Source: Acidovorax sp. Leaf191 (GTDB lineage Bacteria > Pseudomonadota > Gammaproteobacteria > Burkholderiales > Burkholderiaceae_C). Taken from it: a stretch of DNA of 64,000 nucleotides. The stretch's first letter is position 1; each line of letters opens with the position of its first letter. Positions 25,937-49,042 of the stretch are shown piece after piece. The stretch covers positions 1-64,000 of the forward strand of contig NZ_LMPT01000006.1 in NCBI RefSeq assembly GCF_001424425.1, in the 5' to 3' direction. Under the pieces are notes generated by a model. The model was not told where the DNA came from. It worked only from the letters and a program-made list of their open reading frames with translations, and searched no databases. Made by a program: the position numbers and the translations under genes.

Positions 25937-26040
25937 GGGTTTTATTCGGGTGGGGATCGACAGGGTCGCCAACTGGGCCGGGCGTTCATCACCGCCCGCA
26001 CCAGCGCACCACGGCACTCTACGCCCAACCCCCAAAACAG

Positions 26041-26078
26041 TACAGATTCAGTTTCCAGTTAAAAATACAGATCAGTTT
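26041..26078. promoter_or_regulatory. Direct repeat in the cytochrome/MocR divergent region
   Basis: TACAGATTCAGTTT at 26041-26054 and TACAGATCAGTTT at 26066-26078 are near-identical direct repeats starting 25 bases apart, in a locally AT-rich patch of an otherwise GC-rich gap. MocR-type regulators commonly bind direct repeats near their own gene, so this is the likely operator for autoregulation and possibly for the cytochrome genes. Confidence 0.55.
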
Positions 26079-26137
26079 GCGCTGCATCCGCTCCCAGGCC
26101 TCCATGGCCCAAGGGGCCACCCCGTCAGCCCGCCCCC

Positions 26138-27616
26138 ATGAAACGCTACGAACGCCACGCCGACGCCATCGCCCAGCTCATCCACAGCGGCGCCCTGCGC
26201 CCGGGCGACCGCGTGCCGTCCGTGCGCGAGGCCAGCCGCACGCGCGGCATCAGCCCGTCCACCGTGTTCGAGGCGTACTACCTGCTGGAGGCCCAGGGCC
26301 TCATCCACGCCCGGCCGCGTTCGGGCTACTACGTCAGCGCGCGGCTGCCCGCCACCGGGTCCCGCCCCGCAGAGCCCCTGCCCTCGCAGCCCGCGCGCAC
26401 CTCCACCGGCGTGGCCATCAGCGACCTGGTGTTCGAAGTGCTGGGCCTGGCGCGCGACCGCGACCTGGTGCCGCTGGGCTCGGCCTTTCCGGGGCTGGAA
26501 CTGTTTCCGTTGGACCGGCTGGCGCGCTGCCTGGCCAGCGGCATGCGCAAGCTCGACCCCTGGAACATCGTGCAAAGCCTGCCGCCCGGCGACGAACGCC
26601 TGCGCCAGCAGATCGCGCTGCGCTACGGCCTGCACGGCAGCGCGGTGGATGTGGAAGAGATCATCATCACCAACGGCGCGATGGAGGCCCTGAACCTGTG
26701 CCTGGAGGCCGTCACCCAGCCGGGCGACATCGTGGTGGTCGAATCGCCCACCTTCTACGCCGCGCTGCAGGCGCTGGAGCGGCTGAACCTGCAGGCGCTG
26801 GAGATTGCCACCCACCCGCGCGACGGCATCGACCTGGCCGCCCTGGCCGAGGCGCTGGAACGCCAGCCCGCGCACCAGCGGGTCAAGGCCTGCTGGCTCA
26901 TGCCCAGCTTTCAAAACCCCCTGGGCAGCCTGATGCCCGAAAGCAAGAAGCGCGAGCTGGTCGCCCTGCTGGCCCGCCACCAGGTGCCGCTGATCGAAGA
27001 CGACGTGTACGGCGAGCTGCACTTCGCCCCGCACCGCCCGCCCCCGGCCAAGGCGTTCGATGCCCACGGCCTGGTGATGCACTGCAGCTCGTTCAGCAAG
27101 AGCCTGGCGCCCGGCTACCGCGTGGGCTGGGTGGCGGCGGGCCGCTTTGCCACGGCGGTGCAGCGCTTGAAGCTCATGACCACGCTCTCGGCCGCCACGC
27201 CGTCGCAGCAGGCGCTGTCCGAATACCTGGCGCAGGGCGGCTACGACCGCCACCTGCGCCAGCTGCGCCGCAGCCTGGCGCAGCAGCAGGCCATCGCGCT
27301 GGCCGCGGTGGCCCGGCACTTCCCGCCGGGCACGCGGGTGTCGCAGCCCGAGGGCGGGTACTTTGTGTGGGTGGAGCTGCCGCCGCAGGTCGATGCCCTG
27401 CAACTGCACCGCCAGGCACTGCAGCGCGGCATCAGCCTGGCACCGGGGCAGATCTTTTCGGCCGACCGGCGCTTTGCCCACTGCGTGCGCATCAACTACG
27501 GGCACCCGGCGCAAAGCCGCCTGGAAGCCGCGCTGCAGACGGTGGGCGAGCTGGCGACGGCCCTGGCCCAAAGTAGCCCAGGGCCGGGCGAGCACGGCGA
27601 TTCAACCGCTGATTGA
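26138..27616 (+). CDS. MocR-family regulator (GntR helix-turn-helix plus aminotransferase domain)
   Basis: 492 residues. The N-terminal GntR winged helix (residues 1-70) includes GALRPGDRVPSVREASRTRGISPSTVFEAYYLLEAQGL. The remainder is a fold-type I aminotransferase domain with NPLGSLMP, IEDDVYGELHF and the PLP lysine in SSFSKSLAPGYRVGW near residue 323. Such proteins sense PLP or an amine-derived adduct and regulate a neighbouring operon. Here the divergent cytochrome cluster is the nearest candidate, though many MocR proteins control amino-acid genes. Start at 26138 gives the normal GntR N-terminus. Confidence 0.92.
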   Translation: MKRYERHADAIAQLIHSGALRPGDRVPSVREASRTRGISPSTVFEAYYLLEAQGLIHARPRSGYYVSARLPATGSRPAEPLPSQPARTSTGVAISDLVFEVLGLARDRDLVPLGSAFPGLELFPLDRLARCLASGMRKLDPWNIVQSLPPGDERLRQQIALRYGLHGSAVDVEEIIITNGAMEALNLCLEAVTQPGDIVVVESPTFYAALQALERLNLQALEIATHPRDGIDLAALAEALERQPAHQRVKACWLMPSFQNPLGSLMPESKKRELVALLARHQVPLIEDDVYGELHFAPHRPPPAKAFDAHGLVMHCSSFSKSLAPGYRVGWVAAGRFATAVQRLKLMTTLSAATPSQQALSEYLAQGGYDRHLRQLRRSLAQQQAIALAAVARHFPPGTRVSQPEGGYFVWVELPPQVDALQLHRQALQRGISLAPGQIFSADRRFAHCVRINYGHPAQSRLEAALQTVGELATALAQSSPGPGEHGDSTAD

Positions 27617-27859
27617 ACCGATGAATCAACCAATAGTTGAACCGCGGCAGGCCGCGCGGACCCGCCCGCACCGCGCCACCGCAGCACGTTTTGGCTTGCA
27701 GCCACCTGACGAAACCCCGCGGCGTTGGAAAGGCCCAACCTCGGGTTCTCCCGACCTCGGCACGGCTTTTGCCACGGCATACTGACCGCCGCCCGCAACC
27801 CGGGCAGCGCTACCAGCCTGGCAACCCGCCAGCATCCACCACCCACCCAACGCCCCACC

Positions 27860-28213
27860 ATGGCAGCACCCCAGCATGTCCCGTTTCTGACCGTGGAAGA
27901 CGAAGACGACTGGGTCGTCTCATTCGCCCTGGGCCCGCTCGGTGCCAGCCGCCTCACGCTCACGCGCACGCCGCATCTCGAGTTCATGCTGCGGCCCGAG
28001 CAGCGCGGCGTCTCCGTGGGCGGTATGGAGGCCGGCCAGCGCCCCACCCTGCTCGTGGCCGTGCAATGGGGCCACAAATGCGTGGACGTGGTGTCCACCG
28101 CCAAGCGCTACAGCCTGGACATCAGCAAGGTGGACAGCGCCACGCGTGCGGCGGCGCTGCGGGTGCTGGGGAAGATGAATTTCGATCAGCGGTTTCAGTT
28201 GGCGAATGCGTGA
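27860..28213 (+). CDS. Small protein of unknown function
   Basis: 117 residues from the ATG at 27860. I do not recognise the family. The sequence is mixed alpha/beta without signal peptide or membrane helix (FLTVEDEDDWVVSFALGPLG, then LVAVQWGHKCVDVVST). Codon use and GC match the neighbours, the frame is clean and the composition is protein-like, so it is probably real. It stands alone between the MocR gene and a REP-like repeat. Confidence 0.6.
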   Translation: MAAPQHVPFLTVEDEDDWVVSFALGPLGASRLTLTRTPHLEFMLRPEQRGVSVGGMEAGQRPTLLVAVQWGHKCVDVVSTAKRYSLDISKVDSATRAAALRVLGKMNFDQRFQLANA

Positions 28214-28276
28214 GTTCGCGTCGGTGACACCTGGGCAGCGCTCGAGCGCCTGCACACCCCATCTCTCAACCACCAA

Positions 28277-28353
28277 CCGTTCGGGCTGAGCTTGTCGAAG
28301 CCAGGGCACACGCGCCCCCATTGGCAGCCCTTCGACAGGCTCAGGGCGAACGG
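28277..28353. repeat. REP-like inverted pair
   Basis: CCGTTCGGGCTGAGCTTGTCGAAG is followed after about 30 bases by the inverted arm CTTCGACAGGCTCAGGGCG ending in AACGG. It is the first of some dozen loci of this family, all between 28.2 and 50.2 kb and all outside genes. Confidence 0.85.
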
Positions 28354-28431
28354 GGTCAGGCAAGCGCAGCGCGCCGACCATCACCGTCACGGGTTTGCAA
28401 GCACCGCGGCCTCACCCGCCACCCACCGCAT

Positions 28432-29001
28432 TCACACCACCAGCGGATCCAACGGCTTCACCACCCGGCACGGATTCCCCGCCGCAAACACCCGCGCCGG
28501 CACATCGCGCGTGACCACGCTGCCTGCACCAATCACCGCGCCATCGCCAATGGTCACACCGGGGCAGACGATGGCGCCGCCGCCGATCCACACGTCCGCG
28601 CCGATGGTGATCGCGACACCCAGCTCCAGCCCGCCCGCACGCTCCTCGGGCGACATGGGGTGCGATGCCGTGAAGATCTGCACGCCCGGCCCCATCATCG
28701 TGCGCGCGCCGATGTGCACCGGTGCCACGTCCAGCACCACGCAGTTCACGTTGAAGTACACGCCCTCGCCCAGCGTGATGTTGTAGCCGTAGTCGCACTG
28801 GAAAGGCGGCGTGATCGCCACGCTGGCCGGCACGCCCGGCACCAGTTGCGCGACCAGCGCCTTCACCGTGCCGGCCGTGTCGGGCCGGGTGGTGTTGATG
28901 TCGTGGCACAGCTGGCGGGCGCGCAGGCGGTCGGAGGCCAGTTCGGGGTCGGCGGCGTTGTAGAGCGCGCCGGCGATCATCCTGGATTTTTCAGAGGTCA
29001 T
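28432..29001 (-). CDS. Maltose/galactoside O-acetyltransferase-type hexapeptide enzyme
   Basis: 189 residues from the ATG at 29001 ([21 protein letters not shown], the Maa/LacA-type N-terminus). The left-handed beta-helix is seen as hexapeptide repeats from [20 protein letters not shown] to [18 protein letters not shown], with the catalytic His in [11 protein letters not shown]. These enzymes acetylate sugars from acetyl-CoA and often detoxify non-metabolisable sugar. It reads out of the sugar cluster, 40 bases after the dehydrogenase, so acetylation of the same or a by-product sugar is likely. Confidence 0.9.
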
Positions 29002-29040
29002 GGGCCATTGTCCCAGCCCTGCCACGCCAGTCCGGACGGG

Positions 29041-30207
29041 TCAGCCCAAGGGCGTCCACTTGCGCTCGCTCGCGGCGGACTCCACCACCTTTTCGATGAA
29101 GCGCACGCCCTCGGCCCCGTCTTCCACGCGCGGGTAGTCGGCCTCCAGCGCCGTGGCGGTGCGCCCTGCGGCCCGCGCCCGGATGTCCGCCGCCACGCCC
29201 AGGTAGACGTTGGCAAACGCTTCGATGAAAGCCTCCGGGTGCCCGGCCGGAATGCGCCCTGCGCGCAGCGCCGATTCGCTCAGCCAGGGCGAGCCACGGG
29301 TGAGGATGCGGCGCGGCCCGTCCACCGGCGAATGCACCAGGTGGTTGGGGTCCTCCTGCCGCCACACCAGCGTGCCGAGCGTGCCGGACACCTGCAAGCG
29401 CACATCGTTTTCCAGCCCCGCGGCCACCTGCGACGCGACGATCACGCCGCGTGCGCCGCCCGCATAGCGCAGCAGCAGTTGCGCATCGTCGTCCAGCCGC
29501 CGGCCGGCGCCGAAGGTGGTGAGGTCGGCGCACAGCGCCTCGGGCCTAAGGCCGGTGACGGTGGCGGCCAGGTTCTCTGCGTGCGATCCGATGTCTCCCA
29601 TGGTGCCCACCGCGCCGCTGCGGGCCGGGTCCAGCCGCCAGTCGGCCTGCTTGTTGCCGCCGCCCTGCTCCACCGCCGTGGCCAGCCAGCCCTGGTTGTA
29701 TTCCACGGTGACCTTGCGCAGCGTGCCCAGGACGCCGCTGTGCACCAGGTGGCGGGCCTCGCGCACCATCGGATAGCCGGTGTAGTTGTAGGTCACGCCG
29801 AACACGGTGCCGGCCTTTTTCACCGCCGCCACCAGCTCTTCGGCCTGCGCGCTGGTGTGCACCAGCGGCTTGTCGCACACCACATGAAAGCCCGCCTGCA
29901 CGAAGGCCAGGGCCACCGGGTGGTGCACGTGGTTGGGGGTGACGATGCTCACCAGGTCGATGCGCTCATCGGGGCTGCGGCGCAGCTCGTCGGCCAGCAG
30001 GTCCTGCCAGCTGCCGTGGTTGCGGTCGTCCGCCAGGCCCAGCCCGGCGCCGGATGCGCGGGCCCGCTCGGGCGATGACGAGAGCGCACCGGCCACCAGC
30101 GCGAACTGGCCGTCGAGCGCCATGGCCTTGCGGTGCACCGCACCGATGAAGGCGCCGTGGCCGCCGCCCACCATGGCGTAGCGGAGCTTTCTGACTTCAC
30201 TGGACAT
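29041..30207 (-). CDS. Gfo/Idh/MocA-family sugar oxidoreductase
   Basis: 388 residues from the ATG at 30207; the frame runs upstream through a REP-like repeat, which is not coding. The Rossmann motif [31 protein letters not shown] and CDKPLVHT (the EKP-like catalytic lysine) are intact, and the C-terminal domain has [11 protein letters not shown] with a likely catalytic histidine. Such NAD(P) enzymes oxidise or reduce cyclitols, glycosides or keto-sugars. Together with the adjacent TIM-barrel isomerase and CUT2 transporter it suggests a keto-sugar or cyclitol route; the substrate is not determined. Confidence 0.9.
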
Positions 30208-30259
30208 ACGGAAGGCCTTTGTTTGTTGTTCTTGGTTCGCTGTTGCCGACACCACCCGG

Positions 30260-30330
30260 CCGTTCGCCCTGAGCTTGTCGAAGGGATGTCGAGCACTCTG
30301 CCCTGGCTTCGACAGGCTCAGCCCGAACGG
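30260..30330. repeat. REP-like inverted pair
   Basis: Arms CCGTTCGCCCTGAGCTTGTC and GACAGGCTCAGCCCGAACGG face each other across about 30 bases in the gap between the dehydrogenase and the TIM-barrel gene. Same family as 28277-28353. Confidence 0.85.
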
Positions 30331-30379
30331 TGAGGGAGTGGTGGATGGCGGTGGAACGGTGGCGGTGGCTGGAGAGCAT

Positions 30380-31393
30380 TCACACCTTCTGCTGGTCGCG
30401 CGCAAACACCGCGTCGAACGCGCCCGCCGCGGGCTTGAAGTCGAGCCGCTTGCAGAACGCCGCGCTCTCGGTGGCGCCGTGCACGCGGTCCATGCGGCTG
30501 TCCTCCCACTCCACCGAGAGCGGGCCCTGGTAGCCGATGTCGTTGAGCGCGACGATGATGGATTCGAAATCGATCATCCCGCGCCCCACGCTGCGAAAGT
30601 CCCAGGTGCGCCGCGCATCGCCAAAGCTGGTGTGCCCGCCGAACGTGCCCACCGTGCCGTCGCCCTTGCCCCACCACACGTCCTTCATGTGGGCGTTGTA
30701 GATGCGGTCGGCAAACCGGCGGATGAACTTGACGTAGTCCACGCCCTGGTAGGCCAGGTGGCTCGGGTCGTAGTTGAAGCCGAAGCGCCGGTGCTGGTTG
30801 ACCGCCGCAACCGCACGCTCGGCCGAGGCGATGTCGAACGCGATCTCGGTGGGGTGCACCTCCAGCGCGAAGTTGATGTCGTGCTCCTCGAACACATCGA
30901 GGATGGGGCCGAAGCGGTCTGCAAAGTCCACGAACCCCTTGTCCCAGTACGCCTGCGTGGTGGGCGGAAACGCGTAGATCGAATGCCACACCGACGATCC
31001 CGTGAAGCCGGTGACCGTCTTCACGCCGAACTGCGCAGCCGCGCGCGCCGTGTCGGCCAGTTCTTCGGCAGCGCGCTGGCGCACGCCCTCGGGCTCGCCG
31101 TTGCCCCACACGTGGGGCGGCAGGATGGCATGGTGGCGCTCGTCGATCAGGTCGCACACGGCCTGGCCCACAAGGTGGTTGCCGATGGCAAAACACGAGA
31201 GGCCGTGCTGGGCCAGCAGCGCGTGCTTGTCCTTCACGTACTGCGGCGTCGACAGCGCCTCCTGCACGTTGAAATGGTCGCCCCAGCAGGCCAGCTCCAG
31301 GCCGTCATAGCCCATGCTCTTGGCCAGGGGCGCGAGTTCTGCCAGCGGCATGTCGGCCCACTGGCCGGTGAAAAGGGTGACGGGTCTGGGCAT
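30380..31393 (-). CDS. Sugar phosphate isomerase/epimerase-type TIM-barrel protein
   Basis: 337 residues from the ATG at 31393 ([17 protein letters not shown]). The AP-endonuclease-2/xylose-isomerase-like barrel is seen with metal ligands in [30 protein letters not shown] and a C-terminal [10 protein letters not shown]. Members isomerise or epimerise sugars or dehydrate keto-inositols. It is separated from the binding-protein gene by 469 bases of repeats and from the dehydrogenase by one REP-like pair, but all genes share direction and theme. Confidence 0.9.
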
Positions 31394-31425
31394 GGTGCGT
31401 GCGTCCTGGTTATTCGGTCCACCCA

Positions 31426-31493
31426 CCGTTCAGCCTGAGCTTGTCGAAGGCCGGGCACGCAGGGTGTGGCTTCGACAGGCTCAGCCCGAACGG
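31426..31493. repeat. REP-like inverted pair
   Basis: CCGTTCAGCCTGAGCTTGTC and GACAGGCTCAGCCCGAACGG arms with a roughly 25-base centre; 31592-31660 is a near duplicate of the same unit, suggesting local duplication. Confidence 0.85.
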
Positions 31494-31591
31494 GCGGGGG
31501 TGGTGTTGAGCCATTCGGGTCGTGGTGACTGCCATGGCTTTTGTCTGGCAATCGTTGAATTCCAACCTCCGAACCTCCCAACCTCCCAAAT

Positions 31592-31660
31592 CCGTTCAGC
31601 CTGAGCTTGTCGAAGGCCGGGCACGGCTGGGTGCGGCTTCGACAAGCTCAGCCCGAACGG
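31592..31660. repeat. REP-like inverted pair
   Basis: Near copy of 31426-31493 with one arm change (GACAAGCTCAGCCCGAACGG). The outer end runs directly into the G-rich hexamer array. Confidence 0.85.
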
Positions 31661-31668
31661 GCGGGGGT

Positions 31669-31743
31669 GGGTTCGGGTTCGGGTTCGGGTTCGGGTTCGG
31701 GTTCGGGTTCGGGTTCGGGTTCGGGTTCGGGTTCGGGTTCGGG
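31669..31743 (+). repeat. (GGGTTC)12 tandem hexamer array
   Basis: Twelve perfect GGGTTC units from 31669 to 31740, closed by one more GGG. Thirteen G-triplets separated by three bases resemble telomeric G-quadruplex sequence. The perfect units and slippage-prone nature predict copy-number variation between isolates. It lies between the binding-protein and isomerase genes of the sugar operon; the C-rich strand is the template-like minus-strand transcript's sense (GAACCC repeats). Confidence 0.95.
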
Positions 31744-31792
31744 CTGGATGGGTTGAGAGCCATGGCCTCCACTTGCCCAGCAAGCAGTCACT

Positions 31793-31847
31793 GCTATATT
31801 TTTAGTAGCTGCTTGCGCTTACCAGACAAGCGGTAGAGGCCTTTTTT
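31793..31847 (-). repeat. Dispersed repeat element, copy C
   Basis: Reverse-orientation copy: on the minus strand AAAAAAGGCCTCTACCGCTTG, then AAGCGCAAGCAGCTACTAAAAA and TATAGCAG. It begins 16 bases after the stop codon of the binding-protein gene. Read on the plus strand its end (GGTAGAGGCC then TTTTTT) looks terminator-like. Confidence 0.75.
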
Positions 31848-31862
31848 ATCTCAAAACCACCA

Positions 31863-32852
31863 TCAGAACGGCGAGTCCGGGAAGTAGAAGTTCTTCGCGT
31901 TTTCCTTGGTGATCAGCACCGACGGGATGATCGTCGTCGCAGGCAGCTTCTCGCCCTTGATGCGCGCCTCGGCCGTGAGCTTGATCGAGTCGTAAATGAA
32001 CTTGGGGCTGTACGACACATTGGCCTGGATCAGCGGATTGCTGCCATCGGCCAGCGTCTTGATCATGCCCTTGGCACCCGCGCCACCGAACACCAGCTTG
32101 ATGTCCTTGCGCTTGGCCTGCTCGATGGCCTTGAGCACGCCCACGGCCATGTCGTCATCAGCCGCCCACACCGCGTCGATCTGCGGAAAGCGGGTCAGGT
32201 AGTCCTGCATCACTTTGAAGGCATCGTCGCGGTTCCAGTTGGCGTACTTGGCGTCCAGCAGCTTGATGTCGGGGTGGTTCTTCAGCACCGCGTTGAACGC
32301 GTCCATGCGTTCGTTGTCCAGCGTGGTCGCAATGCCGCGCATGGCCACCACGTTGCCCTTGCCGTTCAGCGCCTTGGCGATGTACTCGGCCGGAATCTTG
32401 CCAAACGCGGTGTTGTCACCGGCCACGTACGCATCCTGCGCGCTGGTGTCCGTCAGGCCGCGGTCCACCACCGTCACGTACACACCCTTGGCCTTGACCT
32501 GGGCCACGGGCTTGGTCAGCGCCGCCGATTCGAACGGGAAGATGACCAAGGCGTTGATCTTGTTGACCGTGACCAGGTCCTGCAGCTGGTTGGCCTGCTC
32601 GGGCGCGCCGCCTGCGGTCTTGACGATGACCTGCAGGCCGGGGTGGGCCTTCTCCAGGTCCTTCTTGGCCTGGTTGGCCCAGTACACGATGCCGCCCGTG
32701 AAGCCGTGCGTGGCCGACGGAATGGCCACGCCCACCACCGTCTTGTTGGCCTGCGCCATCGCCGGGCCTGCCAGCGCCAACGCGGCTGCGGCCCCCACGG
32801 CCGAGAGGGCCAGGCGGCGGGTGAAGGACGAAGTTGATGTCTTGCTGTTCAT
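31863..32852 (-). CDS. Periplasmic sugar-binding protein of a CUT2-type ABC transporter
   Basis: 329 residues from the ATG at 32852. A twin-arginine-like or Sec signal ([25 protein letters not shown]) precedes the mature RbsB-like fold: [20 protein letters not shown], the hinge segment [16 protein letters not shown] and [16 protein letters not shown]. The family binds ribose, galactose, xylose or cyclitols. Its permease lies 424 bases upstream with two REP-like pairs between, an arrangement that could stabilise and over-produce the binding protein relative to the membrane parts. Confidence 0.92.
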
Positions 32853-32995
32853 GATGCGTTGTCTCCTGTTGCTGTTGCTGTTGCTTTGCTGAAAATGGCC
32901 ATGAAAGCCTGGCCGACTGGGGAACACTGACGAAACTAAAAACCGGTGGAAGCGCTTCGGAACGGGTGCAAGCACCTGGGGCCTGCGCCACTACC

Positions 32996-33073
32996 CCGTT
33001 CGCCCTGAGCCTGTCGAAGGGCTGTCACGATGGGGCGCGAGTGCCCAGGCTTCGACGGGCTCAGCCCGAACGG
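32996..33073. repeat. REP-like inverted pair
   Basis: CCGTTCGCCCTGAGCCTGTC and GACGGGCTCAGCCCGAACGG arms. Its centre (GGGGCGCGAGTGCCCA) is shared with the next unit at 33116-33217, so the two are tandem duplicates. Confidence 0.85.
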
Positions 33074-33115
33074 TTGGGGGATTGCCGGAATCCAGCGCAG
33101 TGCGCTCGCCCTGCC

Positions 33116-33217
33116 CCGTTCGCCCTGAGCCTGTCGAAGGGCTGCCAACATGGGGCGCGAGTGCCCAAGCTTCGACAGGCCTGTCCTGAGCCACGTCGAA
33201 GGGCTCAGCCCGAACGG
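33116..33217. repeat. REP-like pair with extra internal arm
   Basis: Starts like 32996-33073 but its right half contains an extra arm, GACAGGCCTGTCCTGAGCC, before the final GGCTCAGCCCGAACGG. The same extended right half recurs at 40773-40873 and 48741-49042. Confidence 0.8.
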
Positions 33218-33276
33218 TTCGGGGGTCGGGGCGGCCTCGCGGGGCGAATGAAAGGAATGAAGTGGCGACACGGCCA

Positions 33277-34293
33277 TCACCTCTTTCCACGCTGCATGAA
33301 AGCCACCGCGATGATCACAAACCCCTGCACCGCCGCATTCAAATACACGCTGATGATGCTGGTCAGGTTCAAGATATTGCTGATCACCGACAGCAGGATC
33401 GCGCCCACCACCGTGCCGGTGATGCTGCCCGCCCCACCCTTGAGCACCGTGCCGCCCACGATCACCGCGGCGATCGCCTCCAGCTCCCACAGCAGGCCCG
33501 TGGTGGGTGATGCGGACCCCAGGCGCGGCACGTACAGCAGCGTGGCAATGCCCACGCACACCCCGAGCAGCATGTACGTCAGGATCTTGATCTTGTGCAC
33601 ATCCACCGCCGCGTACTGCGCCACCTGCTCGTTGGAGCCGATGGCCTGCACATAGCGGCCATAGGCCGTGCGGTTCAGGATGACGCCGCCGATGACAGCC
33701 ACCAGCAAAAAGACCCAGACCGGAATCGGCACCCCCAGCAGGTTGGCGTAATACACGGGGCTGTAGATGTCAGACAGATCGTTCTCCAGCGTGATGGCCC
33801 CGCCGTTCGAAAAATACGTGAGGTACGCACGGAAGATGCCCAGCGTGCCCAGCGTCACGATGAAGGGCTCGATGCGCCCCTTGGTGATCAAGAGGCCATG
33901 CACCAGCCCGAACACCGCGCCCAGCACCACCGCCAGCAGCATGCCCACCACCACGGCCGCCATGGGCGAGCCCAGCACGGGCGCCATCGCGTTCATGAAC
34001 AGGATGACCGAGCCTGCGATCAGCGCCGCCATCGACCCCACCGACAAATCGATGCCGCCCGAGATGATCACAAAGCACATGCCCACCGCGATGATGCCGA
34101 TGAAGGCCGTGCGCGTGAGCACGTTCATCACGTTGTCGTAGGTGGCGAAATTGCTGTTGAGCAGCGTGCCGGCAATGCACAGCAGCACCAGCCCGATGAC
34201 CGGGCCCAGCCCGTGCAGCTTGCCCCACCAGGCCGTGGCGCCGCCGTGGCGGCCCGCTGGGGTGGTGGCGTTTTCAGCGGGTACCTGTGGCAT
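33277..34293 (-). CDS. CUT2-type ABC transporter permease
   Basis: 338 residues with eight to ten membrane helices. The RbsC-family signature [22 protein letters not shown] and the cytoplasmic loop around [26 protein letters not shown] are typical. It forms the membrane channel with the ATPase encoded just upstream, overlapping it by 20 bases, so the two are translationally coupled. The substrate follows that of the periplasmic binding protein. Confidence 0.93.
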
Positions 34294-35764
34294 GTGCGAT
34301 CAACTCCTCTTCGGTCAAATGTGGTTCTTGCAGCGTGGTCTGCAGCCGCCCGGCGCGCATCACCGCCACGCGGTGGCACAGGCCGATCAGCTCCATCAGT
34401 TCGGAAGAAATCACCACCACCGCCAGCCCCTGCTCCGCCAGGCGCTGCACCAGGTGATAGATCTCGCGCTTGGCGCCCACGTCCACGCCGCGCGTGGGCT
34501 CGTCCAGCACCACCACGCTGGGGCCGGGGTGCAGCACCTTGGCCAGCGCCAGCTTTTGCTGGTTGCCGCCCGACAGCGACGACGCGCGCACCTCCAGCGA
34601 CCCGGTGCGGATGCCGAACTCCTGCACCGCATCGCGCAGCGCAGCCTGCTCGGCCGCCGGGTCGAGCCAGGGCTTGGCGTAGCGCTCCAGCGCCATCAGC
34701 GTCAGATTGGGGCGCAGGCTGAAGTGCACGTGCAGGCCTTTGCCCTTGCGGTCTTCGCTCAGGTACGTGAGGCCGTGGCGCGCCGCATCGCGCGGGCTTT
34801 TCAGATTCACCGGCTTGCCCGCCAACTCCACCGTGCCGGCCGACCGCGGGCGCAGGCCCAGCAGGCCCTCGAACAGCTCCGTGCGCCCCGCGCCCACCAG
34901 CCCGGCAAAGCCCAGAATCTCGCCGCGCCGCACGTCAAAGCTCACGTCCTCGGCCCAGCCCGGCACAGAGAGGCCCCGCACCTGGATGGCGGGCTCTCCA
35001 CCCGCAGGCGCGGGCAGCTTGGGCGGGAACAAATCCGCCAGCTCGCGGCCCACCATCAGGTTGGCCATCTGCCGCCGCGTCACGCTGGCCGTGGCCTCGC
35101 GCGCCACCAGCAGGCCGTCGCGCATCACCACCACCTCGTCGGTGGTGCGCTCCACTTCGTCGAGCTTGTGCGATATGTAGATGATGGTCACGCCCGCAGC
35201 CTTGAGCCCGGCCATCAGCGCAAACAGGCGCTCCGTCTCGCCGGGGGTCAGGGTGGCAGTGGGCTCGTCCATGATGAGCAGGCGCGCATTGCGGGCCAGC
35301 GCGCGGGCAATCTCCACCAGCTGCTTTTCGGCCACGATGAGCTTCTTCACCCGCGTGTCAGGGTCGAGCGGCAAACCCACCTGTGCAAGTGCAGCGCGCG
35401 TCTTCTCGCGCATCGCCTTGTCATCCAGGAAGGGGCCACGCTTGATCTCATGGCCCAGAAAGATGTTCTGCGCAATCGTCAGGTCGTCCGCCAGATTGAA
35501 CTCCTGGTGGATGAGCACGATGCCCTGCGCCTCGGCCGCGCGCGATCCGCCGCCCGGGGCGCGCACCGCGCCGTCCACCACCACCTCGCCGGTGGTGGGG
35601 CTCTCGTACCCCGCCAGTATCTTCATCAGCGTGGACTTGCCCGCGCCGTTCTCGCCCAGCAGGCCGTACACACGGCCCGGCTGCAGCGCAAAGCCCACGC
35701 CGTGCAGCACGCGCACCGGGCCGAACTCCTTGGTCACATTGCGAAACTCGACAGCGACGCTCAT
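34274..35764 (-). CDS. CUT2-type sugar ABC transporter ATPase, duplicated domain
   Basis: 496 residues with two nucleotide-binding domains, as in RbsA/XylG/MglA. Domain 1 has Walker [17 protein letters not shown], a degenerate signature [13 protein letters not shown] and [13 protein letters not shown]. Domain 2 has the weak Walker [16 protein letters not shown], signature [15 protein letters not shown] and [13 protein letters not shown]. The asymmetry (one degenerate site) is normal for this subfamily. It overlaps the regulator by four bases and the permease by 20. Confidence 0.95.
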
Positions 35765-37008
35765 CGTGTGGCCCCCACGGCATTGGCTTTGGTCGCAGAA
35801 GAAGAGGCACGCGGCGACAGCGCCAAGCTCTGCTGCATGGCCAGCACGCCCGCGCCCACCACGCCGGCATCGTCGGCCAGCGGCGCGTATTGAATCTCCA
35901 GGTGCCGCGTGGAGAGCGCCAGCGACCGGTGGTACACGCTCTGCCGCACCGACGCCAGGAACAGCGGCCCCATGTCCGTCACCCGCCCTGCAATGAACAC
36001 GTGCGACGGGTTGAAGAAATTCACGATGGACGCCAGCATCTGCCCCACCAGGCTGCCCGCCCGCTGAATGATTGCGTTGGCCGCCACATCGCCCGCACGG
36101 CTGGCCTGGGCCACGTCCTCGGTGGTCAGCGTGCCGGTGGCCTGCAGGCGCTCGGCCAGCATCGCGCTCTCGCCCCGCTCCACGGCCTCCATCGCCATGC
36201 GCGCCATGGCGGGCGCAGCGGCCATCGCCTCCACACAGCCCTGGTTGCCGCAGTGGCAGCGCGGCCCGCTCTGGTCCACGCAGATGTGGCCCACGTCACC
36301 GGCCGACCCATTGGCCCCCCGGTACACCTGCCCGTGGCACACGATGCCGCAGCCAATGCCCGTGCCGACCTTGATCACCAAAAAGTTGGGCAGATTGCGT
36401 TGCAGCCGCCACAGCTCGCCCAGCGCCATCAGATTCACGTCGTTGTCCACAAACACCGGCGCGGCAAACGCCTCGCGCAGGTAGTCGCGGATGGAGAAGC
36501 CGTCCCAGTCGGGCATCAGCGGCGGGTTGACGAGCTGCCCGCTTTCAAAATCCACCGGCCCCGGCAGCCCCATGCCGATGGCAATGACCTGCGACGCCGC
36601 CAGCCCGCAGCGCGCCATTAGCTCCCGCATCAGCCCGCGCAGCCGCGCCAGGATCACGCCCGGCCCCTGGCGCACATCGATGGGCTCGCGGTGCCGCGCC
36701 AGCACCGTCATGTCGGGCCGCATGATGGCCACCTGCATGCTGGTCGCGCCCAGGTCGGCGCCGATCACCACGCCCAGGGTTTCGCTCAATCGCAGGGTTT
36801 CGGCGCGCCGGCCGCCAGAGGATTCTTGCAGGCCCACCTCGTCGAGCAGGCCTTCGTCCAGCAACGCCGCCACCATGGCGTTGGCCTTGCTCTTGGAATA
36901 GGCCAGACGCTGCGCGAGTGCATTGCGCGACGCGCCTGCGGACCAGAAGATGGCCTGCAAGACGCCCAGGTCTTCGGCGCCGCAGTGACTCCAGCGGGTG
37001 GATGGCAA
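35761..37008 (-). CDS. ROK-family transcriptional regulator
   Basis: 415 residues from a TTG at 37008, supported by AGGAGA seven bases upstream. The N-terminal winged helix (about 15-70) contains RNALAQRLAYSKSKANAMVAALLDEGLL; the ROK domain follows with GADLGATSMQVAIM and the zinc motif CHCGNQGCVEA. NagC/XylR relatives repress sugar genes until a sugar binds. It heads the operon and overlaps the ATPase gene by ATGA, so it is probably autoregulated through the repeated ACTTTGRCC sites at 37082-37122. Confidence 0.93.
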   Translation of the reverse strand: MPSTRWSHCGAEDLGVLQAIFWSAGASRNALAQRLAYSKSKANAMVAALLDEGLLDEVGLQESSGGRRAETLRLSETLGVVIGADLGATSMQVAIMRPDMTVLARHREPIDVRQGPGVILARLRGLMRELMARCGLAASQVIAIGMGLPGPVDFESGQLVNPPLMPDWDGFSIRDYLREAFAAPVFVDNDVNLMALGELWRLQRNLPNFLVIKVGTGIGCGIVCHGQVYRGANGSAGDVGHICVDQSGPRCHCGNQGCVEAMAAAPAMARMAMEAVERGESAMLAERLQATGTLTTEDVAQASRAGDVAANAIIQRAGSLVGQMLASIVNFFNPSHVFIAGRVTDMGPLFLASVRQSVYHRSLALSTRHLEIQYAPLADDAGVVGAGVLAMQQSLALSPRASSSATKANAVGATR

Positions 37009-37081
37009 GGCTTGTCTCCTGTCGTTTTCGTAAACAGCACCTCATGGGGGTGGGTGCTTGGACAGGGATGCTATGCGGTCT

Positions 37082-37122
37082 ACTTTGGCCGGGCAAGACT
37101 GAACTTTGACCAACTTTCAACC
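37082..37122. promoter_or_regulatory. Repeated sites before the ROK regulator
   Basis: ACTTTGGCC (37082-37090), ACTTTGACC (37103-37111) and ACTTTCAACC (37113-37122) are three similar direct repeats 75-115 bases upstream of the regulator start; starts are 21 and 10 bases apart, roughly helical spacing. They are the best candidate binding sites for the ROK protein. Confidence 0.45.
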
Positions 37123-37217
37123 AAAGCAATCCTATCGAATCGTTGCTACTCGGTTACCAACGACGAACCGTTACTTAGCTAGCCTTCGGATCTGATGCCA
37201 AGCTTACGAAAGCGGGG

Positions 37218-37246
37218 TCGTCATTGTTTCAATAGGGCGCTATAGT
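37218..37246 (+). promoter_or_regulatory. Predicted promoter of the AAA+ gene
   Basis: TCGTCA (37218-37223) and TATAGT (37241-37246) at 17-base spacing. The -10 box is good and the -35 box fair (four of six). Start of transcription would fall near 37253, leaving a leader of about 94 bases that contains the CCATTAAT pair. Confidence 0.45.
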
Positions 37247-37286
37247 GCTTGCAGTTGTTAGCTCCGAAGTATCAAAGCCAGGGGAT

Positions 37287-37318
37287 CCATTAATCGGAAC
37301 TAACCACCCCATTAATGG
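37287..37318 (+). promoter_or_regulatory. Paired CCATTAAT sites in the AAA+ leader
   Basis: CCATTAATCGG at 37287-37297 and the perfect palindrome CCATTAATGG at 37309-37318 start 22 bases apart, about two helical turns, downstream of the predicted promoter. Looks like a two-site operator; the cognate protein is unknown and the AAA+ protein itself, which has a winged helix, is one candidate. Confidence 0.4.
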
Positions 37319-37346
37319 CATGCCTATTGCATAAAGGGTTTACACG

Positions 37347-38603
37347 ATGCTCACTCCAAATGATGTTTTCACTCCTGGGCAGCTCCCAATTCATCCTACG
37401 AATATTTATGCGAATCGAGGAGCATCAGAGAAGCTCTTCACAAAAACGTTAGCGCGAGGAATGGTACCTGTTGTGTACGGTGAATATGGGGTTGGAAAAA
37501 CGTCAATGGCACGGTACGCACTTCGTGAGAAGGATGAAGCCGGTCTTCTCGTAAATATAGAGAGCGTTGCCGATCAAAAATTGGATGCAGTATTTGCAAG
37601 ATGCCTAGAAAAGTTAGGTTATACCGTACAAACTAAAAAAACAACTAGCGCCACCCACTCAAACACGCACGAGCAGTCCGCTCAAGCTGGTGCATCTGTT
37701 GGAGGCTGGGCAAATGCCGTGGTCGCATCAAAGCGCACAAATTCATCAGGCTCGGCCTCTCAAAAAGAAGAGCAGTTCGTTGTAACCTCGCCAACAGACT
37801 CAAAAATAATTGAAGTATGCGAGGAAGCAGGTGTTGCTTTGTTAATCGATGAATTACATCGCGCCACACCAGATTTCTCAGAAGAGTTGGCGAAGTTTAT
37901 AAAAAGCTATGGAAATGCAAACTGCAAAAAATTTCGAATTGTTCTATTAGGAACAGCTTCAGACGCCAGCAAGCTAGTATCTTCAGACCCTGGCATCGAT
38001 CGCCTAATACAGGAAGTGCATCTGACATCAATGACGAATTTCGAATCCGAATATGTTGTAAACGAGGGAATGAAGGCGCTTGCCATAACGATTGAACAAA
38101 ATGTCATTGACAAGCTTGTGAAGACGTGCGTAGGCTCTCCGAGTATTCTTCAGTATTTGTGTTTAGAAGTAGCTGAGGCCGCCTTTGAACGCACGCCACG
38201 TAAAGTGCTTGCTACTGACGTACAGAATGCGGTGGACTCGTTTGTAGAAACAAAGATGGCGCGGTTAAACAAAGCCTACATTTCCGCCATTGAAAGCACA
38301 GGTGAAATTCGCTATAGAAAACAGATTTTGCGAGCGATGGCAGAATGCGATGACGAATATGTAACCATGGAAATGATCAAGAATCGAGTTTCCACCTACT
38401 TGGGCAAGGACGTACCAAGCACATCCTTATCCGGCCCTTTACGAGATTTGAAAGACGAGCGGTACGGTCCAGTTCTAAACGACGTAGAGCGCCCAGAGGG
38501 GGTAGATCGCTTAAACAACTACACGACTTTTAAAGACCCCGCTCTTAAGGCTTTTGTACGGCTCCAGGTACTTAGAGAAGAAGGCAGCAGCGAGACAAAA
38601 TAA
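37347..38603 (+). CDS. Solitary AAA+ ATPase with Orc1/STAND-like architecture, function unknown
   Basis: 418 residues, in an AT-rich gene unlike its neighbours. Walker A GEYGVGKTS at 45-53, Walker B VALLIDELHRA at 163-173 and a sensor-like RIVLLGTAS near 197-205 are intact, so ATP hydrolysis is expected. Between them, residues about 97-145 are a low-complexity Ser/Thr/Ala/Gln stretch. The C-terminal 90 residues (RYRKQILRAMAECDDEYVTMEMIKNRVSTYL) look like a winged helix, as in Orc1/Cdc6- and STAND-type ATPases. No nuclease, protease, TIR or membrane effector domain is fused or adjacent. It may be a stand-alone defence or replication-linked ATPase; no role is assigned. Confidence 0.85.
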   Translation: MLTPNDVFTPGQLPIHPTNIYANRGASEKLFTKTLARGMVPVVYGEYGVGKTSMARYALREKDEAGLLVNIESVADQKLDAVFARCLEKLGYTVQTKKTTSATHSNTHEQSAQAGASVGGWANAVVASKRTNSSGSASQKEEQFVVTSPTDSKIIEVCEEAGVALLIDELHRATPDFSEELAKFIKSYGNANCKKFRIVLLGTASDASKLVSSDPGIDRLIQEVHLTSMTNFESEYVVNEGMKALAITIEQNVIDKLVKTCVGSPSILQYLCLEVAEAAFERTPRKVLATDVQNAVDSFVETKMARLNKAYISAIESTGEIRYRKQILRAMAECDDEYVTMEMIKNRVSTYLGKDVPSTSLSGPLRDLKDERYGPVLNDVERPEGVDRLNNYTTFKDPALKAFVRLQVLREEGSSETK

Positions 38604-40875: not shown

Positions 40876-41625
40876 TCAGGGCGAGTGGGCGCCGCGTTCA
40901 CTGGAGGCCGTTGCCACCCAGCCCCTGAACGCGAACCCCATGTAGAACATGCGCACATCGCCGAACCCGGCCTCGCGCAGGATCGCCTCGTCCTCCTGCG
41001 GCGTCAGCACCGCCAGCTCGGCCGCCACCTTGGCACGCCCGCGGTCGGCCATCTCCGGCGCCATGCCGGACGCCACCTGAAACGCCGCATAGCGCGACAG
41101 CCACAGGTCACGCTCCCCTGCCCCGCCTTCGCCCCGAGCACCTTCACCATCGGCCACGCTCAGGTGCACCGCGACGAACGGCGCGCCGGGCTTCAGCCGC
41201 CGCCGGATCTCGGCCACCATGGCCGCACGCTCCTCGCGCGGCACAAAGTGAAAAGTCAGCAAACACGTCGCGCCATCGAACGGCCCGGCCGGTGCGCTCT
41301 GCACATAGCCGTGGTGCAGCGCCACGCGGTCGCCCGACACGCCCGCGCTTTGCAGCCGCTGCGCGGCCAGGTCCAGCATGGGCTGGCTCGGGTCCACGCC
41401 GTCGAAGCGCCAGCCGGGGTGCGCGCGCGCCATGTCCTCCAGCTCCAGCCCGCCGCCCGCACCCACCACCAGCACCCGGCCGTCGGCGCGCACGCGCTCG
41501 GCCAGCAGGATGCGCACCATGGGCAGCAGGCTGTCGTAGCCGGGCACGTTGCGGCGGGGGCCTTCGGCGTAGCGGGCGACGGCGGCGGGGTCGGTGAAGG
41601 GGGTCGTGGTGGTGGGATGGGGCAT
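40876..41625 (-). CDS. Class I SAM-dependent methyltransferase
   Basis: 249 residues. Motif I VLVVGAGGGLELEDMARAHPGW, an acidic residue closing strand 2 (FDGVDPSQPML) and LTFHFVPREERAAMVAEIRRRLKPGAPF are the standard Rossmann methyltransferase features. The substrate is not evident; the family resembles small-molecule methyltransferases. It converges on the LysR gene and reads away from the Rrf2 gene. Confidence 0.88.
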   Translation of the reverse strand: MPHPTTTTPFTDPAAVARYAEGPRRNVPGYDSLLPMVRILLAERVRADGRVLVVGAGGGLELEDMARAHPGWRFDGVDPSQPMLDLAAQRLQSAGVSGDRVALHHGYVQSAPAGPFDGATCLLTFHFVPREERAAMVAEIRRRLKPGAPFVAVHLSVADGEGARGEGGAGERDLWLSRYAAFQVASGMAPEMADRGRAKVAAELAVLTPQEDEAILREAGFGDVRMFYMGFAFRGWVATASSERGAHSP

Positions 41626-41690
41626 GGTGTGGTGTGCGGGGGGTACGGCGTTTTGCGGTAGAGGTTGAGCCGAGGGTTGGCCGGGTTGGC

Positions 41691-48694: not shown

Positions 48695-48740
48695 GCGGGG
48701 GTCGGTGCAGGTCACAGTCTGTCGGAGCGTTGTGCGGCGC

Positions 48741-49042
48741 TTCGACAAGCCTGTCCTGAGTCTGTCAAAGGGCTCAGCGTGAACGGATATTGGGGATTCC
48801 ATTTCACTCACCCCCAAACCGTTCGGGCTGAGCTCTCAAACACCGTTCGGGCTGAGCCTGTCGAAGCCTTGGGCGGCGCTTCGACAAGCCTGTCCTGAGC
48901 CTGCCGAAGGGCTCAGCGTGAACGGGTAATTGTGGCTGCATCTTCACTCGCCCCACACCGTTCGGGCTGAGCCCCTCAAAAACCGTTCGGGCTGAGCCTG
49001 TCGAAGCCTTGCGCCGCGCGCCAACAAACTTCGCGCGAACGG
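48741..49042. repeat. Compound REP-like block
   Basis: About 300 bases made of three consecutive loci: an extended right arm (48741-48786), a doubled left arm plus extended right arm (48819-48925) and a doubled left arm with a shortened partner (48959-49042). The doubled arms read CCGTTCGGGCTGAGC twice with a short CTCAAA link. It fills the gap between the oxidoreductase and DsbA-like genes, which converge. Confidence 0.85.

Follow-up and report, generated by a model that had tools for sequence, protein, structure and literature searches.

A perfect GGGTTC array at the edge of a REP-like palindrome in a sugar-operon spacer of Acidovorax sp. Leaf191, probably a young microsatellite

The window analysed here is the whole stretch of 64,000 nucleotides at positions 1 to 64,000 of contig NZ_LMPT01000006.1 of Acidovorax sp. 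Leaf191 (assembly GCF_001424425.1), referred to below as the source genome. Its minus strand carries, in the order of reading, a ROK-family regulator, an ABC sugar ATPase, an ABC sugar permease, a periplasmic sugar-binding protein, a spacer with a tandem hexamer array, an isomerase-like protein, an oxidoreductase and an acetyltransferase. Judged by order and strand, the genes from 28432 to 37008 would form a single operon, and as this operon reads leftwards its message would carry the C-rich (GAACCC)n. The features needed below are as follows.

28432..29025, minus strand: acetyltransferase of the hexapeptide (maltose acetyltransferase-like) kind, by domain match
29041..30405, minus strand: GFO/IDH/MocA oxidoreductase open frame, the first 66 codons of which read through a REP-like doublet
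30380..31426, minus strand: xylose-isomerase-like TIM-barrel protein (sugar isomerase/epimerase type), GTG start, by domain match
31426..31494, no strand assigned: second copy of the doublet that adjoins the array, with the same G-rich edge and no array
31592..31660, no strand assigned: REP-like inverted-repeat doublet adjoining the array (24-nt arms, 92% complementary, 21 nt between arms)
31669..31743, plus strand: perfect array of hexamers, (GGGTTC)12 + GGG, whose G-rich strand is the operon's template strand
31764..31841, minus strand: strong mRNA hairpin soon after the binding-protein stop codon, by fold prediction
31863..32852, minus strand: periplasmic sugar-binding protein gene (Peripla_BP_4), likely ATG start, by domain match
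33277..34293, minus strand: ABC sugar permease (BPD_transp_2), by domain match
34274..35764, minus strand: ABC sugar ATPase with two ABC_tran stretches, by domain match
35761..37008, minus strand: ROK-family regulator, by domain match

The true start of the oxidoreductase probably lies inside its open frame. No intrinsic terminator was found in the operon direction between 31380 and 31900; the single terminator-like site in this interval lies on the plus strand, with 0.8 expected by chance on both strands together. A cmscan of 26000-38000 placed no Rfam family in the spacer, and its two matches, both below gathering scores, fell elsewhere. A weak match to AaHKsRNA41 (30254-30436, 27.3 bits against a gathering score of 97) covers another palindrome doublet and is likely to reflect chance or a shared repeat. 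Two frames in which the array would be a coding repeat were considered and rejected, a minus frame at 31481-31783 (RT repeats, 100 codons, TTG start) and a plus frame at 31522-31836 (GF repeats, 104 codons, GTG start); both run through palindrome halves as well as the array, and we take them to be non-genes.

Tandem Repeats Finder resolved positions 31669-31743 as (GGGTTC)12 followed by GGG, with a period of 6, 12.5 copies, 100% matches and no indels, giving 13 GGG tracts and 12 TTC spacers. This confirms the exact run that an earlier note on this DNA had read from the letters, and the gene order agrees with the note's placement of the array between a binding-protein gene and an isomerase(-like) gene. 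The array lies 119 nt beyond the stop codon of the former and 242 nt ahead of the start codon of the latter; both genes are on the minus strand, and the G-rich strand of the array is the non-coding strand. The note had also called the array telomere-like, a resemblance of letters only: the array sits 31.7 kb into a 98-kb contig with genes on either side, an internal position rather than the chromosome end at which a telomeric repeat would be found. About 3.5e-32 perfect period-6 runs of this length are expected from base composition in 5.87 Mb, which excludes a random assembly of letters but does not exclude slippage, the ordinary source of perfect tandem arrays. Across the 24 contigs of the source genome, exact (GGGTTC)3 or longer occurs at this one place, and the other GGGN3 arrays are built from other units. 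A scan of a genome collection for (GGGTTC)4 returned at least 117 stretches, spread over many phyla; among the matches listed, the longest array per stretch has 4 to 15 units. In 96 of the 117 matches listed the middle of the array fell in a stop-free frame of at least 200 codons on either strand, by a test that is lax in GC-rich DNA. Arrays of (GGGTTC)n arise independently again and again, and the present one is not rare in itself.

Besides the strand of the two genes, the earlier note had left unmentioned a dispersed inverted repeat, the doublet at 31592..31660, along whose outer edge the array sits and whose right edge, CGGGCGGGGGTGGG, is the probable seed of the array. Both doublets in the spacer share the edge CGGGCGGGGGTGG, and an array is found at one only. 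The core of the palindrome, TTCGACARGCTCAGCCCGAACGG, has 91 exact matches in the source genome against none for the reversed pattern, and the copy statistics given here use 90 distinct copies of these 91 matches. Allowing one mismatch, the window holds 20 matches against 0.04 expected. The core was found in 38 of the 47 genomes of the genus, 1 to 101 times in each. A partner half lies within 60 nt 5′ of the core in 39/90 copies, and the element next to the array thus has the features of a REP-like sequence, being a short palindrome present in many copies and often in inverted pairs. Further cores with no more than one mismatch lie at 28286/28331, 30269/30308 and 33005/33051/33125 (28286-28344, 30269-30321 and 33005-33138), and palindromes accordingly occur in the oxidoreductase/isomerase-like gap, in the binding-protein/permease gap and after the last gene of the operon. 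Farther along the window, a 139-nt tandem repeat of 2.2 copies (48719-49019) is built round the same palindrome.

The edge of the element is asymmetric in composition. On the 3′ side of the core, GGGG occurs within 20 nt in 40/90 copies against 5/90 at 50-70 nt, and CCCC within 20 nt in 1/90. The G-rich edge recurs in other genomes, with 13 of 31 copies against 4 in G043 and 12 of 30 against 5 in G029. According to the available text of PMC3733652, GTAG and CGTC tags mark two large REP super-families. Within 12 nt on either side of the core, the 90 copies yielded one GTAG, no CTAC, no CGTC and three GACG; since the tags are missing, we term the element REP-like and place it outside those two super-families. 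The label rests on copy number and palindromic pairing, and not on a tag or a transposase; the source genome has one Y1_Tnp gene, and the 3 kb fetched around it contain no core. A literature text search on the letters of the element returned unrelated papers only. Acidovorax, Comamonad, Burkholderiales, Delftia, Variovorax and Polaromonas are not mentioned in the available text of PMC3733652, nor are Acidovorax, Comamonas, Burkholderia or betaproteobacteria in that of PMC12306157. No description of the present element or of microsatellites at REP edges was recognised in the literature searched, which does not prove that none exists.

Other arrays lie near other copies of the element in the source genome. 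A (TCGGG)10 array (L177:1590) is 25 nt from a core copy and a (GCAGAA)16 array (L181:1372) is 30 nt from another, while (CATCCC)4 (L234:379) lies on the other side of a core copy. At L183:1584-2100 whole elements form a tandem cluster, each followed by a differing number of GTGGAT units, up to 6, and the assembly contains an N there. The G038 locus corresponding to (TCGGG)n has no run of two units. The (GCAGAA)16 array was not found in the G019 relative (L280), and the G038 match stops before the array position.

The history of the spacer was followed in a genus set of 47 genomes, one per species, in which the binding-protein gene was accepted at an E value of 1e-60 or better. The gene is present in 24 of the 47, source genome included, and the isomerase-like gene comes next in the same direction in all 24. 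The longest TTCGGG run in the spacer is 12 units in the source genome (G000), 8 in G019 and 3 in G038. In the remaining 21 it is 0 or 1, and none of these contains any other perfect array of at least 3 units of 4-8 nt. Over 2.67 kb of left flank, identity to the window is 97.8% for G019 and 94.2% for G038. Unit number thus changes between species, with 12, 8 and 3 units within near-identical flanks, as the slippage foreseen in the earlier note would predict. Fourteen of the 21 array-less spacers are short (86-178 nt), two, G035 and G043, have a single palindrome core, that of G043 with a mismatch, and six, including G043, have a different dispersed G-rich element (L144, L149, L150, L153, L155, L159). 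This other element, CCCTCTCCCC...GGGAGAGGGCCGGGGAGAGGG, resembles in its letters an E. coli intrastrand triplex motif described in the available text of PMC4666352. Matches to (GGGTTC)3 in G020, G035 and G036 lie in unrelated surroundings on contigs other than that of the binding-protein gene. A mixed (GGGTGC)n(GGGTTC)n array in G020 (L012:1440-1560) lies at a site that bears no relation to the spacer and may be coding. A tree built from one gene pairs G000 with G019 as sisters (support 97/94); because the tree does not fix the branching of G038 relative to array-less species, a single origin of the array is assumed from the shared flanks. The array is lineage-restricted, and the gene pair persists without it.

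The earlier note's view that the array is suited to G-quadruplex formation holds for the G-rich strand, which has the G-quadruplex motif and a lower predicted minimum energy with quadruplexes allowed (-39.4 kcal/mol) than without (-25.8 kcal/mol; RNA parameters, one program). The C-rich strand, which is that of the operon mRNA, is predicted at -0.5 kcal/mol with quadruplexes allowed, by the same program and parameters. As the message is the C-rich strand, a quadruplex in the mRNA is ruled out; one may form in the template DNA strand, and only there. Scored with G4Hunter over 75 nt, the window peaks at 1.6 at 41551-41670, above 1.48 around the array.

A quadruplex in the template strand could in principle make the array a functional control element, slowing RNA polymerase and setting the ratio of binding protein to isomerase-like protein. 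The 13 GGG tracts with their 3-nt loops and the predicted energy gain on the G-rich strand speak for such an element, and a canonical G4 motif lies on the template-strand side in 9/24 orthologous spacers, three with the array and six with the unrelated element. All three array-bearing species retain the motif on the same strand, which can be cited in favour of function, and the orientation of such sequences alters T7 transcription in the available text of PMC7341879. The enhancement described there, however, concerns the non-template strand, whereas here it is the template strand that is G-rich. Moreover, 15/24 orthologous spacers have no G4 motif on the template-strand side, and the six other motifs belong to a different dispersed repeat that has a G4 motif on the opposite strand too. 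The array itself is absent from 21/24 spacers between the same two genes, and the earlier note's proposal that it sets transcription or mRNA stability is not supported as a conserved role. We regard control by the array as unlikely. Unlikelier still is that the array belongs to the REP-like element as an integral, mobile component and was inserted with it. Other units do lie near other copies, namely (TCGGG)10, (GTGGAT) up to 6 and (GCAGAA)16, but the units vary from copy to copy, and no array occurs within 80 nt 3′ in 84/90 copies or within 80 nt 5′ in 86/90. The other doublet of this spacer shares the edge and lacks an array, and at no unrelated site in the source genome are there three or more GGGTTC units.

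Another rival reading is a phase-variable switch, in which unit number would change reversibly between cells and turn the downstream genes up or down. Unit number does differ between species and perfect units favour slippage, but steps of six bases hold the frame and cannot shift it, and neither of the open frames that cross the array, each of about 100 codons, is in our view a credible gene. Nor was any promoter-like site (sigma-70 type) found on the minus strand in 31380-31900, and a unit change would therefore alter neither a reading frame nor the spacing of a promoter. The genes serve sugar uptake and are not surface antigens; Rehm et al. (2015) likewise thought phase variation unlikely for their related G-rich repeats, in the available text of PMC4692102. 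The phase-like variation put forward in the earlier note is therefore unlikely, and a reversible switch of this description would be most improbable. Less credible again is an assembly or sequencing artefact. The source genome is a 24-contig draft and another of its arrays is broken by an N, but the same array lies in the same flanks in two further genomes. At 75 bp it would also fall within one ordinary read if short reads were used, since these are longer than 75 bp.

We consider it likely that the array is a young, near-neutral microsatellite, born by slippage at the REP-like edge in the sugar-operon spacer. A REP-like palindrome pair would have arrived in the spacer in an ancestor of the three array-sharing species; its outer edge is G-rich (CGGGCGGGGGTGG), and a short TTCGGG seed would have lain beside it. 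Slippage of DNA polymerase would then have added and removed whole six-base units, leading to the 12, 8 and 3 units of today. It was probably aided by the strong hairpin, which would stall synthesis at the palindrome base, and perhaps also by folding of the G-rich strand into quadruplexes. According to the available text of PMC7023247, G-rich repeats able to form quadruplexes are unstable in E. coli, and the folding is linked above all to the displacement that the G-rich strand undergoes when the DNA is transcribed; since the G-rich strand is the template here, that route would be less direct. That slippage acted at this array is suggested by the unit series itself, read from sequence. Some observations count against this reading. 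More than half of the core copies (50/90) have no GGGG at the edge, and the second REP-edge array, (TCGGG)10, has 10 units in G019 too, over a compared stretch only 91% identical, so that arrays at REP edges do not always drift. No core lies within the 1 kb fetched around two further arrays of the source genome, (GGGCCT)7.5 and (GGGAAC)7, and the element is thus not required for such arrays.

A broader and more tentative proposal, which we hold to be possible and rather doubtful, is that the G-rich edge of the REP-like element is a microsatellite birthplace, where hairpin-stalled replication and a G-rich seed would repeatedly start arrays (GGGTTC, TCGGG, GTGGAT, GCAGAA). If so, a dispersed repeat family would seed variable and often quadruplex-prone DNA around the genome. 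A first count in the source genome gave 10 arrays in the 19.7 kb lying no more than 100 nt from the element against 4 in the 147.7 kb farther away, the near loci being six when the array of the window is left out and the L183 cluster is taken as one. In non-coding DNA of three genomes, with the array of the window excluded, 7 loci fell in 16.0 kb at up to 100 nt from the element against 5 in 39.3 kb farther off (one-sided binomial 0.03), non-coding DNA being judged by a crude rule of open frames and GC3. The two other genomes alone gave 3 loci in 9.7 kb against 3 in 24.2 kb (one-sided binomial 0.23). The sample comprised 30 of 77 core loci of the source genome plus the window, 30 of 87 core matches in G043 and 30 of 71 in G029. 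The first, strong-looking excess thus shrank once the count was limited to non-coding DNA over three genomes, and the excess of arrays near the element is small and suggestive, with the two core-less arrays (GGGCCT)7.5 and (GGGAAC)7 counting against it.

The series of 12, 8, 3 and no units at one syntenic place is a natural one for a quadruplex-prone hexamer array, with which slippage could be measured and the idea that microsatellites begin at palindrome edges examined. The case also counsels caution: strand and relatives should be checked before a striking G-rich array in an operon is called a control element.

Apart from the array, the message of the spacer is predicted to be highly structured. 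In mRNA sense the whole spacer folds at -198.7 kcal/mol (z -9.39 against shuffles; energies from RNA parameters), owing to the two palindromes and to the hairpin that follows the stop codon. The minimum-energy structure shows the array part weakly paired and the centroid shows it unpaired, and its transcript would form a C-rich, weakly paired linker between the post-gene hairpin and the two palindromes. By eye, the double hairpin GCAGCTAT...ATAGCTGCTTGCGCTT...AAGCGCTAGAGGCC at 31764-31841, directly after the binding-protein gene, recurs in many of the 24 relatives; within the window, one of its ends was matched elsewhere at chance level only. If the spacer is functional, stabilisation of the binding-protein mRNA by its hairpin and palindromes may be the obvious candidate, by analogy with E. 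coli REP sequences. These structures would be more plausible stabilisers than the array, and there is no sign that the array is needed for any such stabilisation.

Intercistronic REP sequences stabilise the upstream mRNA in the E. coli malE-malF spacer. Here, too, structured palindromes follow a binding-protein gene in a sugar ABC operon; unlike the malE-malF arrangement, an isomerase-like gene comes after the palindromes, and palindromes lie in other gaps as well. For REPs in general, mRNA stabilisation is named as a hypothesis in the available text of PMC3733652. The neighbour of the array resembles REP/BIME sequences in being a dispersed inverted-repeat pair in many copies, also found in other operon gaps, but the array is not part of the element, no GTAG/CGTC tags were found at the element's edges, and no core lies in the 3 kb around the one Y1_Tnp gene. 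The available text of PMC3110155 describes the beta-proteobacterial repeat element (BRE) of Bordetella and Comamonadaceae as dispersed, variable in number, mostly intergenic and about 90 bp long; compared by description only, BRE and the present element are both dispersed and mostly intergenic. The nearest description of the array itself is that of Rehm et al. (2015), whose G-rich heptamer repeats of GGGNATC type in Xanthomonas and Nostoc vary in unit number and have no demonstrated role, in the available text of PMC4692102. The present array shares with them a short G-rich unit, a unit number that varies between relatives, an intergenic position between genes in line with four or more G tracts, and quadruplex competence. 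It differs in its unit, GGGTTC of 6 nt rather than GGGNATC / GGGGAYT of 7 nt, and in forming the only place with (GGGTTC)≥3 in its genome, whereas the heptamers are scattered genome-wide with a preference for four units (PMC4692102, available text). Its distances from the neighbouring stop and start codons (119 and 242 nt) and the non-coding position of its G-rich strand also set it apart. As it lacks three of the four Rehm features tested, we do not file the array as a member of that class, to which it is alike in kind.
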